From Alphaproteobacteria bacterium (GTDB lineage Bacteria > Pseudomonadota > Alphaproteobacteria > Micropepsales > Micropepsaceae): 64,000 bases of DNA. A program made the translations under genes and the position numbers. Every line of letters starts with the position of its first letter. The first letter of the stretch is position 1. Below the pieces are notes generated by a model. The model made no database searches. It had not been told where the DNA came from and saw only the letters and a list, made by a program, of their open reading frames with translations. Shown piece by piece: positions 38,271 to 44,662 of the stretch. The DNA lies in the NCBI GenBank assembly GCA_018971835.1, contig JAGWZW010000001.1, positions 31,488 to 95,487 of the forward strand. Reading direction: 5' to 3'.

Positions 38271-41087
38271 TTAGCGCAGCGCTTGTTCGAACGCGGTGCG
38301 CAGGGCCTGAAGCCCGGCGTTGACTTCCTTCAGATGCACGCGCAGCGCCCGCCGCCCGCGCTCGTTGAGCACGGCGAAGTCGCCCAGCGCCTGCGCCCGT
38401 TCGACGGCGTCGAAGCTGAGCTTGTGCCCGGGGATTTCCAGCACATCCTGGTGCTCGCAGGTGACGACCAGGAAAACGCCGGTGTCCGGCCCGCCCTTGT
38501 AGGCCTGTCCGGTCGAATGCAGGAAGCGCGGCCCGAAGCCGAGGCAGGTGGCGTTCTTCTTCGCGTTGCGCAGCGCCTCGCGCATGGTCTGGAACGGCGC
38601 ATCGTTGTCGGCGCACTGTTCGATGAAGGCGAGGAAGGCGAAGTAGTCGTGCGCGTTGAGGCGCGCCAGATGCGCTTTCAGATAGGCGGCGATGCTGTTT
38701 CGTGTGCCCAGCGCGCTGCGGTTGGCGGCATCGGCGTAGAGCGCTAGGCCGCCCGCCTCGAAGAACGGTGCCTCCTGCGGCAGTTCGCCGGTCTTCTCGT
38801 AGGTGGCGGTCAGTTCGCGCGTCTCGACCTTGGCGGATTCGACGTCGGGCTGGTCGAACGGATTGATGCCCATCACCGCGCCGGCCACCGCCACCGCGAT
38901 CTCCCACATAAAGAAGATCTGGCCGAGCTGGAAGGAATCCTCGATCACGATGCGGATGACGGGATGGCCGTGATCCTCCAGCGCCTTGATGCCTTCGGTA
39001 TCGCCGACGCCGGCTTGGCGCAGATGCACGAAGACGCGGTCCTCGCCATAGGCTTCCGGTGTCCCCAGCGGCTCGCGGTCCACCGGGATCAGGCCTTTGC
39101 CCTGCTTGCCGGTGGATTCGGCGATGAGCTGTTCGAGCCAGGTGCCCATCGTTTCCAGTGCGTCCGAGGCAACGATGGTGATCTTGTCGCGCCCGCACTC
39201 CGTGGCCAGCGTGCCCAGCGTGAGGCCAAGGCGCACGCCGGGGTTGGCTACCGGCGGCACCAACGGGCCGCAGCTCGTGACCATGCGCTGGGTTTCGCCC
39301 AGAAAGCGGGCGAGGTCGAGGCCGAGCGCCGCGCCCGGCACCAGGCCGAACTTGGAGAGCACCGAATAGCGTCCGCCGATGGCGGGCGCGCCGTGGAAGA
39401 TTTCGGCGAAATGGTTCTCGCGCGCCACCGCCTCCATCGACGAGCCGGGATCGGTGACGGCGACGAAGGCCGCGCCTGCGCGCCTGGCATCGGTCGCCCT
39501 GAGCGCGCGGTTCCAGAAATAGTCCTTGAGCAGGTTGGGCTCGAGCGTCGAGCCCGATTTGGAGCAGACGATGAACAGCGTCGTCGGCACCGTGATCTTG
39601 TCCTCTACCGCCTTGATCTGGTCGGGATCGGTGGAATCGAGGATGTGGAGCTGCGGCCAGCCTTCGCGATGACCGAAGCTGTCGGAGAGCACGGCCGCCC
39701 CCAGGCTCGATCCACCCATCCCGAGCAGCACCACGTCGGTCAGGTGCGCGTGGCCGATAGCATCGCGGAATTTGACGAGCTGGTTCTGATTGGCTTGCTC
39801 CTGCCCGACGATGTCGAGCCAGCCCAGCCAGTTGGCCTCGCCGGAGTCGGTCCACAGTGTGGCGTCGCGCGCCCACAGCCGGCGCCCGCCGCCGGCCTTG
39901 GTCCACTCGGCGATTTTCTTCTTCACCGCGTCCGCAGCCGGGCCGAGGGCCTCGCTGACCTGTGCCACGGCGCTGTCGAGCAGCTTGAGGCGCTTGCACG
40001 CCAGCGCGGCGTAGAGCCGGTCGCTGGCCTCGGCGAATTTGGCCACACCGTCCTCGACCAGATCTTCCGTCACCGCGTCGAGCGAGATGCCGTTGTCGGC
40101 CAGGGCCTTGAGCGTGGCCTTCGCTTCCTCGATGTCGTCCTCGATGGTGGCCGCGACGGTGCCGTGGTCGCGGAAAGCGGCGAGCGTTTCCGGCGGCATG
40201 GTGTTGACGGTGTCGGGGCCGATCAGCGTGTCGACATAGAGCACGTCCGGATAGGCCTTGTTCTTGGTGCTGGTGGAGGCCCAGAGCAGGCGCTGCGGGC
40301 GGGCGCCGCGCGCCGCCAGCTTCTCCCAGCGCGGGCCGGAGAAGATCGTCTTGTAAAGCTGGTAGGCCAGCTTGGCGTTGGCCACCGCCACCTTGCCGCG
40401 CAGCGCCGCGAGAGCATCGGGCTTGGTGGAGACTTCCAGCAGCTGGTCGATCAGCGCATCGACTTTCGTATCGATGCGGCTGACGAAGAAGCTGGCCACG
40501 CTCGCCGCGCGGGACAGATCGGCATCGGCCGGCAGCGCCTCCAGCCCTTCGAGATAGGCGCGCGCCACCTCGCCATAGGTTTCACAGGAGAACAGCAGGG
40601 TGACGTTGATATTGAGGCCGCGGGCCGTCAGCGCGCGGACCGCAGGGATGCCGGCCTTGGTGCCCGGCACCTTGATCATCAGGTTGGGGCGGTCGATCTC
40701 GGCGGCGAGCGACAGCGCCTCTTCGATGGTGCCCTGCGTATCGTCGGCCAGATAGGGCGAGACTTCGAGGCTGATGAAGCCGTCTTGGCCCTTGGTCTGG
40801 TCATGGACCGGCCTCAGGGCGTCGGCCGCACCCTGGATGTCATGCACGGCGAGCCGGCGATAGATGGTGCCCACATCCTCGCCGGCTGCCACGGCGCGGG
40901 CGATGTCCTCGTCGTATTCCTTGCCGCTGGTGATGGCCTTCTCAAAGATCGCGGGGTTGGAGGTCATGCCGGCGATTCCATCGGTCTCGATCAGCCGGGA
41001 GAGTTCGCCGCTCTCGATCATGCCGCGCGCCAGCGTATCCAGCCACACGGACTGGCCGATGCGTTCGAGATCCTTGAGCCTGTTCAT
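38271..41087 (-). CDS. bifunctional transaldolase / glucose-6-phosphate isomerase fusion
   Basis: Transaldolase N-half (GMTSNPAIFEKAITSGKEYD, PNLMIKVPGTKAGIPAVRALTARGLNINVTLLFS) and PGI C-half (LLGMGGSSLGAAVLSDSFG, FIVCSKSGSTLEPNLLKDYFW, NPFDQPDVESAK). Confidence 0.96.
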   Translation of the reverse strand: MNRLKDLERIGQSVWLDTLARGMIESGELSRLIETDGIAGMTSNPAIFEKAITSGKEYDEDIARAVAAGEDVGTIYRRLAVHDIQGAADALRPVHDQTKGQDGFISLEVSPYLADDTQGTIEEALSLAAEIDRPNLMIKVPGTKAGIPAVRALTARGLNINVTLLFSCETYGEVARAYLEGLEALPADADLSRAASVASFFVSRIDTKVDALIDQLLEVSTKPDALAALRGKVAVANAKLAYQLYKTIFSGPRWEKLAARGARPQRLLWASTSTKNKAYPDVLYVDTLIGPDTVNTMPPETLAAFRDHGTVAATIEDDIEEAKATLKALADNGISLDAVTEDLVEDGVAKFAEASDRLYAALACKRLKLLDSAVAQVSEALGPAADAVKKKIAEWTKAGGGRRLWARDATLWTDSGEANWLGWLDIVGQEQANQNQLVKFRDAIGHAHLTDVVLLGMGGSSLGAAVLSDSFGHREGWPQLHILDSTDPDQIKAVEDKITVPTTLFIVCSKSGSTLEPNLLKDYFWNRALRATDARRAGAAFVAVTDPGSSMEAVARENHFAEIFHGAPAIGGRYSVLSKFGLVPGAALGLDLARFLGETQRMVTSCGPLVPPVANPGVRLGLTLGTLATECGRDKITIVASDALETMGTWLEQLIAESTGKQGKGLIPVDREPLGTPEAYGEDRVFVHLRQAGVGDTEGIKALEDHGHPVIRIVIEDSFQLGQIFFMWEIAVAVAGAVMGINPFDQPDVESAKVETRELTATYEKTGELPQEAPFFEAGGLALYADAANRSALGTRNSIAAYLKAHLARLNAHDYFAFLAFIEQCADNDAPFQTMREALRNAKKNATCLGFGPRFLHSTGQAYKGGPDTGVFLVVTCEHQDVLEIPGHKLSFDAVERAQALGDFAVLNERGRRALRVHLKEVNAGLQALRTAFEQALR

Positions 41088-42837: not shown

Positions 42838-43467
42838 CTAATGAAACAGCCCGCTGCCCGTGAGGCCATCGAACACGAACTGCATGGCGAGCGCCGCCAA
42901 GAGGATGCCGGAGATGCGCGCGATGGCGTTGGCGCCGGTCACGCCCATGACCTTCACCAGCTTTCCGGCGGCCAGCATCGTCATCAATGTCAGCGCCAGC
43001 ACCACGGCAAGGCCGGCCAGCACCAGCGCGCCGTCCGTCAGGCTGCGGGCTTTGCCCATCAAGAGTACGATCGCCGTCATCGAGCCGGGGCCCGCAATCA
43101 GCGGGATGGCCAGCGGCACCACGGCGATGTCCGGCCGGTGGCGGGCTTCCTCTTCCTCGCCCTCGGTGATGGAGGAGACGCCGGAGTGTTTGGCCAGCAG
43201 CATGTCCGCCGCCACCATCAAGAGCAGGATGCCGCCCGCCGTGCGGAAGGCGGGCAGGCCCACGCCAAGCAGCCCCAGCAGCTCGTTGCCGCCGAAGGCG
43301 AAGGCCAGCAGCACCACCGCCGCCGTGGCGGTGGCGATGAGGGCCAGGCGCGTGCGCGCGACCGCGCCCTGGCCCGCCGTCAGCGCCACGAAGATCGGCG
43401 CCAGATCGACCGGCCCGATGGCCACGAACAGCGTGGTGACGGCAGTGAGAAAGAATTCGAACTGCAC
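42838..43467 (-). CDS. MarC-family integral membrane protein
   Basis: [54 protein letters not shown] start. Confidence 0.85.
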
Positions 43468-43597
43468 GCTTGCCCCTCCGGCGGCCGGGATTCGCGCCGC
43501 CGCTGCAGCTTGGCCGATCGGCGGGTGGCAGACAATCCTGGCCCGTTCGAGGCGCACAGGCTTGTCAACGCGGCGCGGACGCCCTAGAGAACGGCGG

Positions 43598-43672
43598 ACA
43601 TCAAGAGTTGGGCATTGCCCGACGCCAACCTGCTTCCCGAGCAAGGTGGCGCTCCCCGCGACGGGAGGATGT
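43598..43672 (+). ncRNA. candidate SAM-I-like riboswitch aptamer in the metA leader
   Basis: Four-way junction: P1 ACATC/GATGT, J AAGA, P2 GTTGGGC/GCCCGAC, P3 GCCAACCTGCT/AGCAAGGTGGC with unpaired AA opposite T, P4 CTCCC/GGGAG; AAGAG and CCAACC...AAGGTG resemble SAM-I core. Confidence 0.6.
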
Positions 43673-43744
43673 GGCCGGACCGGCAACCAAACGGGTCACG
43701 CCACTTTCGGTCTTGCCCTTTCGCGCCGTGGGATGGACCGAGAC
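43671..43744 (+). promoter_or_regulatory. candidate expression platform of the metA leader
   Basis: Hairpin GTGGCcgGACC/GGTCacGCCAC (43671-43704) competes with the P1 3' strand; TCGGTC (43707-43712)/GACCGA (43736-43741) plus CCC/GGG can pair with the metA ribosome-binding region. Confidence 0.45.
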
Positions 43745-44662
43745 ATGCCGATCAAGATTCCAGACAACCTGCCGGCCCGCGCCATTCTGGACGCGGAAGG
43801 CGTCATGGTCATGGGCGAGACCGATGCCATCCGCCAGGATATCCGGCCGCTGCGTGTGGGCTTGCTCAATCTCATGCCGAACAAGGCCCGGACCGAGACG
43901 CAGTTCGCGCGCCTGCTCGGCGCCTCGCCGCTGCAGGTGGAACTGACGCTGATCAAGATCACCAACCATGTGCCGCGCAACACCCCCAGCGACCACATCA
44001 TCTCGTTCTATCGCGACTGGCAGGACGTGCGCGGCGAAAAGTTCGATGGCCTGATCGTCACCGGCGCCCCGGTGGAGACGATGCCGTTCGAAGAGGTGAC
44101 CTATTGGGACGAGCTGCGCCGCATCTTCGACTGGACGCAGAGCAACGTCCACGGCGTCTTCTCGGTGTGCTGGGGCGCGCAGGCGGCGGTCCACCATTTC
44201 CACGGCATGCAGAAATACCTGCTGCCGCAGAAGATGTTCGGCGTTTACCGCCACCGCATCCTCGATCCGGTCTCGCCCTATCTGCGCGGCTTCTCCGACG
44301 ATTTCCTGATTCCCGTCTCGCGCTGGACCGAAGTGCGCAGCGGCGAAATTCCGGCGGCCAGCGGCATGAAGGTGCTGGCCGATGCGGAGGTTGCGGGCCT
44401 GTGCCTGCTGGATGACCCGGCGCATCACGCGCTGCACATGTTCAACCACATCGAATATGATACGAACTCGCTGGCCGACGAATATTTCCGCGATCTGGCC
44501 TCCGACAAGCCCGTCGCCGTGCCGTACGACTATTTTCCCGGCGACGATCCCAAGCGCCCGCCGCTCAACCGCTGGCGCAGCCATGCCCATCTGCTGTTCG
44601 GCAACTGGCTCAACCAGATCTACCAGACGACGTCGTTCGACCTGTCGAAGATCGGCCGGTAA
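43745..44662 (+). CDS. metA: homoserine O-acyltransferase, MetA family
   Basis: [89 protein letters not shown]. Confidence 0.96.

Follow-up and report, generated by a model that had tools for sequence, protein, structure and literature searches.

A predicted SAM-I/IV riboswitch in the metA leader of an alphaproteobacterium and a possible switching role for its P2 helix

We put at roughly 0.86 the probability that the 5' leader of metA in this alphaproteobacterial genome contains a SAM-I/IV riboswitch through which SAM favours a hairpin that hides the ribosome-binding region, lowering MetA production, and which can refold when SAM is low. By its sequence, the metA-leader element is a new instance of the known SAM-I/IV class and an ordinary member of it. 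In a cmscan search with all Rfam models over both strands of the whole 64,000-nucleotide stretch analysed here (the window), the RF01725 match at this locus (E = 2.4e-6 over the window; 68% GC) was the only Rfam match, one further, lower-scoring match of the same clan at the locus (name not shown) having been set aside; the aptamer occurs as a single copy in the genome assembly. The aptamer and the two genes that flank it are as follows.

43593-43700, + strand: SAM-I/IV riboswitch aptamer (RF01725), full length; cmscan 55.2 bits, gathering cut-off 41.1, model positions 1-99 of 99
43745-44662, + strand: metA, homoserine O-acyltransferase, 305 aa; PF04204, 414.7 bits; start aligned with homologues
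42838-43467, - strand: divergent marC-family gene; PF01914, 165.9 bits

The last aptamer base is 45 nt upstream of the metA start codon, and the metA product scores 446.2 bits with the NCBIfam model MetA_acetyl, just below its cut-off of 460.5. MetA carries out the first committed step of methionine synthesis, and metA is a classic SAM-repressed gene. In this genome the gene is very probably SAM-controlled through a known riboswitch class, which as annotation is of modest value; of greater use is a hypothesis, open to experimental test, on how SAM-I/IV aptamers signal to the gene. Elsewhere in the window, positions 38271-41087 (- strand) encode a fused bifunctional transaldolase/phosphoglucose isomerase (NF007080, 1372.9 bits).

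A sequence-only reading had placed a compact SAM-I-like four-way junction at 43598-43672 and taken it for a SAM-sensing member of the SAM-I superfamily ahead of metA, an assignment that the RF01725 match supports at the level of sequence. Helices P1-P4 lie where that reading put them, all the pairs it listed are standard, and an unconstrained ViennaRNA fold of 43593-43700 gives the same four helices. The interval was rightly positioned but ended too early, as the element reaches to about 43700, and two elements just past its end had been overlooked, namely P5 and the 3' strand of the pseudoknot PK2. The complete set is listed here.

43598-43602, + strand: P1 5' strand ACATC, paired with GATGT at 43668-43672; in 37 homologues, 96.7% paired cells and double changes at two pairs
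43603-43606, + strand: J1/2, AAGA, a SAM-I-type core junction; aligned to the model consensus CAUcAAGAG and conserved in homologues
43607-43623, + strand: P2, GTTGGGC-ATT-GCCCGAC, without internal loop, proposed anti-sequestor strand; covaries
43624-43650, + strand: P3, with the asymmetric AA/U core and a loop that donates to PK2; covariation and pair check
43636-43639, + strand: PK2 5' strand CCCG, in the P3 loop; standard pairs with 43692-43695
43652-43667, + strand: P4, CTCCC-CGCGAC-GGGAG; double changes at all five pairs
43668-43672, + strand: P1 3' strand GATGT; model match and pair check
43674-43684, + strand: P5, GCCG-GAC-CGGC; double changes at three of four pairs
43692-43695, + strand: PK2 3' strand CGGG, paired with CCCG at 43636-43639; covariation

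Because P5 and PK2 follow P1, the element is a full SAM-I/IV aptamer rather than a pseudoknot-less minimal SAM-I. The idea of a minimal SAM-I variant without pseudoknot, or of a new subclass, had its basis in the short P2, a continuous 7-bp helix with the 3-nt loop ATT, and in the absence of PK-1. That no pseudoknot joins the P2 loop to J3-4 had been read correctly, and this is a hallmark of SAM-I/IV (PMC6890682). A P2 loop of a few nucleotides is, however, normal for the class in the homologue alignment, P5 and PK2 are present and conserved outside 43598-43672, and the whole RF01725 model is matched with a score above the curated cut-off (55.2 versus 41.1 bits). The Rfam searches proposed at the outset gave a clear match to RF01725; RF00162 (SAM-I) had no match at E <= 10 in a genome-wide search, RF00634 (SAM-IV) had none at E <= 10 in a search at the metA-leader locus, and RF00521 (SAM-II) was absent from the genome under stricter filters and from the 64 kb window. 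We therefore reject the minimal or novel variant as highly improbable, and the claim to novelty falls with it, as the sequence-only reading had itself stated that a clear Rfam match would remove it.

Comparison with homologues supports these helices. Across 37 homologues, 18 of the 30 pairs in P1-P5 show double changes and 91.1% of cells are paired, with a covariation score of 0.255, values that none of 500 shuffles reached; slid registers of the same alignment were 32-45% paired. The covariation anticipated for P1-P4 is thus present, and all five helices contain covarying pairs. For PK2, P3 loops were matched against the 3' tail of the same sequence and against those of other sequences, which gave an own-versus-swapped z of 6.5 over 60 homologues and a z of 0.0 in the reversed-tail control. 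A chance fold within an intergenic gap might be suspected given the GC-rich region, 68% in the match, but the E-value over the window, the strong covariation and the recurrent position before metA refute it, and we consider its probability negligible.

The core points to SAM as the ligand. The P3 core, CAACCTGC...AAGGTG, is invariant or nearly so in the 37 homologues, and the RNA at 43593-43700 would be expected to bind SAM. The aptamer might instead sense a related ligand, such as SAH or another adenosyl compound, given that sequence by itself does not reveal which ligand is bound and that some copies in the same genus stand ahead of a beta-eliminating lyase gene rather than a known methionine gene. 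However, the SAM-I-type core (AAGAG, and AA opposite U in P3) fits the RF01725 consensus and is conserved in homologues, and the downstream gene here, metA, is one typically repressed by SAM, so that a different ligand appears very unlikely.

Between the aptamer and metA, the leader contains two further elements that bear on how the gene may be controlled.

43700-43704, + strand: GCCAC box, able to pair with GTGGC at 43671-43675 (P1 end and P5 start); paired in the unconstrained fold
43705-43743, + strand: platform hairpin, TTTCGGTCT (43705-43713) with GGACCGAGA (43735-43743) plus a CCC/GGG inner helix; fold of 43696-43765

The GCCAC box is found in most metA leaders and, because it is nearly invariant across them, its pairing with GTGGC lies beyond covariation testing. 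The platform hairpin, in the predicted fold, covers the GGA-rich ribosome-binding region before the metA ATG at 43745. Its arms covary in 42 metA leaders (own versus swapped z = -4.7; reversed control +2.4), and Shine-Dalgarno-like bases are on average paired to 0.79 in the predicted platform folds of these leaders; the leader in the window has only weak Shine-Dalgarno-like matches. A hairpin over the ribosome-binding region with covarying arms supports translational control. The region of the hairpin 3' arm also contains an in-frame ATG, at 43733, which precedes the conserved start of metA by 12 nt.

A transcriptional SAM-I/IV switch, in which the SAM-bound RNA would favour a terminator and the alternative fold would be an antiterminator, finds a parallel in some non-metA homologues (for example, L050 and L055) in which a GC hairpin and, after it, a short run of T residues immediately precede the start codon. 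In the window, by contrast, no terminator-like site was found in 43440-43780, the hairpin lacks a T run and extends over the ribosome-binding region, and in most metA homologues about 40-50 nt separate the aptamer end from the start codon; we therefore regard transcriptional control as unlikely. No sigma-70-type promoter was recognised at the metA leader, which says little in this group.

The most likely function is a SAM-induced OFF switch acting on MetA translation, the direction of control (OFF with SAM) being deduced from the role of the gene. When plentiful, SAM would bind the P1/P3 core and stabilise P1, P5 and PK2; the downstream hairpin at 43705-43743 would then form and hide the ribosome-binding region, and less MetA would be made. 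When SAM is scarce, the aptamer would be unstable and the leader could refold, exposing the ribosome-binding region. In relatives, the likeliest competing partner in this refolding would be P2, which through its 5' arm and loop is complementary to the 5' arm of the sequestering hairpin, the segment given below.

43707-43718, + strand: hairpin 5' arm, alternative partner of P2; leader-specific complementarity in relatives

When leaders are compared side by side, the hairpin 5' arm resembles the reverse complement of P2, as in L004 (P2 TTGGGTCGACGC, platform GCGTCGATCTAA) and L097 (P2 GGGCCGACG, platform CGTCGGCTC); in the window the matching segments are 43610-43614 with 43714-43718 (GGGCA:TGCCC) and 43619-43622 with 43707-43710 (CCGA:TCGG). 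Over 42 leaders, the duplex of P2 with its own platform has a mean energy of -17.8 kcal/mol, as against -15.6 kcal/mol with the platforms of other leaders, a difference reached in none of 20,000 permutations (z = -6.3; reversed-platform control -0.3). The other five aptamer elements gave z values between -2.2 and +0.9 against their own platforms. The P2 signal persists when each distinct P2 is represented by a single leader (z = -3.7) and within the GACG group (z = -4.0); in the CCGA subgroup, to which the leader in the window belongs, the own-versus-swapped signal was not significant (z = -1.2, p = 0.13). All 13 leaders with CCGA in the P2 3' arm have a platform containing TCGG, which occurs in none of the 29 others. 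On a MetA tree these two traits change together about four times, two of which are forced by well-supported branches, and with so few changes a Fisher p-value overstates the association; L127 entered this tree by a wrong frame, and its position there is meaningless. In 21 non-metA leaders the same test gave z = -3.9, but this set was left out as evidence because its reversed control also reached -3.2.

On these grounds we propose, tentatively and at a little under even odds, that, in the absence of SAM, the P2 5' arm and loop of alphaproteobacterial SAM-I/IV riboswitches capture the 5' arm of the Shine-Dalgarno hairpin, and that the leader in the window is a weaker, compensated variant (CCGA in P2, TCGG in the platform). 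Switching through P2 in the window itself may occur, though the case for it is weaker than for the family. By fold energies that ignore PK2, magnesium and co-transcriptional order, folds made to contain the P2-platform pairing lie above the unconstrained fold by a median of 6.25 kcal/mol in the 42 leaders and by 8.4 kcal/mol in the window, and just 3 of the 42 have the pairing as their predicted ground state; given the 8.4 kcal/mol cost, simple equilibrium refolding via P2 is unsupported for the window. A P2 anti-sequestor would explain why the P2 sequence and the expression platform change together. In textbook SAM-I switches it is the P1 3' strand that switches; if the proposal is true, the part that moves would be the aptamer hairpin itself and not just the P1 3' strand. 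In the papers on SAM-I/IV consulted here, Trausch 2014 not among them, we found no earlier description of P2-platform pairing, and we claim no priority.

Among relatives, we considered the 80 closest MetA homologues kept from GTDB genomes, a sample chosen by MetA similarity and no census of the class, in which SAM-I/IV lies upstream of 44, as a rule about 40 nt ahead of the start codon, and SAM-II upstream of 4. SAM-I/IV ahead of metA is therefore a frequent arrangement among this MetA's nearest relatives, and among the closest alphaproteobacterial homologues it is much commoner than SAM-II. Carriers of the SAM-I/IV-metA arrangement include Brucella/Ochrobactrum, Sphingomonas, Azospirillum, Inquilinus, Kaistia and Xanthobacter; those with SAM-II are two Chelativorans, Pseudaminobacter and Mesorhizobium. 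Of 385 genomes sampled from the class, 35 contain RF01725; for the order the figure is 10 of 96. The initial remark, that SAM-II is the better-known riboswitch of metA leaders in alphaproteobacteria, agrees with Sinorhizobium meliloti, in which the SAM-II riboswitch upstream of metA reduces metA translation under high SAM (PMC9373788), but does not describe the 80 closest homologues.

The proteins closest to the MetA of the window (up to 79%) come from Sphingomonas, Inquilinus and Rhodospirillales. Within its own genus, two genomes (G020 and G024) encode MetA proteins only 63% identical to it and carry a different P2 type, and most genomes have neither the riboswitch nor metA. The riboswitch-metA unit (43593-44662 in the window; also L004 and L005) may move as a module.

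Several copies stand ahead of other genes. Three loci from the same genus as the window (L006, L007 and L008) carry SAM-I/IV at 1501-1607 before a beta-eliminating-lyase/threonine-aldolase-like gene (PF01212 in L006) in place of a known methionine gene, and two more copies (L146 and L147) have aptamers near-identical to these. SAM control of a lyase would be surprising and may hint at a part in sulfur or methionine metabolism that has gone unrecognised. In four alphaproteobacterial loci from genomes of 1.3-1.4 Mb (L043, L047, L051 and L052), SAM-I/IV is without P4 and has a short A/T-rich linker instead; these copies are upstream of an OmpW-family gene (tested in L047), and a conserved block ending in GTGCACCCTAGATT lies between aptamer and gene. 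Six further non-metA copies (L038, L040, L046, L054, L055 and L058) precede short ORFs that directly follow a CCTCC...GGAGG hairpin; in some of these (for example, L055), GCGTCAGCCC precedes the 5' side of the hairpin and is the reverse complement of their P2 (GGGCTGACGC).

Compared with known SAM riboswitches, the window element shares with SAM-I (RF00162) the P1-P4 four-way junction and the same SAM-binding core, but it lacks the P2 internal loop/kink-turn and PK-1 and possesses P5 and PK2. P5 and PK2 are shared with SAM-IV (RF00634), which differs in having a split P2 (P2a/P2b) and PK-1 and no P4 (PMC6890682), whereas the window element has a simple P2, P4 and no PK-1. SAM-II (RF00521) of alphaproteobacterial metA leaders occupies the same gene context and probably does the same job with an unrelated fold. 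SAM-I/IV is distinguished from SAM-IV by an undivided P2, the absence of PK-1 and the presence of P4 (PMC6890682), and the variant was defined by the missing internal loop in P2 (PMC2864571); the window element fits both descriptions on every point. The crystallised SAM-I/IV RNA (PDB 4L81), the sequence of which is quoted in PMC5393176, has the same layout as the window element, with P4, P5 and PK2. With SAM-I/IV (RF01725), the element thus shares the full model, P1-P5, PK2, a P2 without internal loop, the lack of PK-1 and a methionine gene downstream, and it differs in sequence detail only, its P2 loop having 3 nt and its P4 helix 5 bp.
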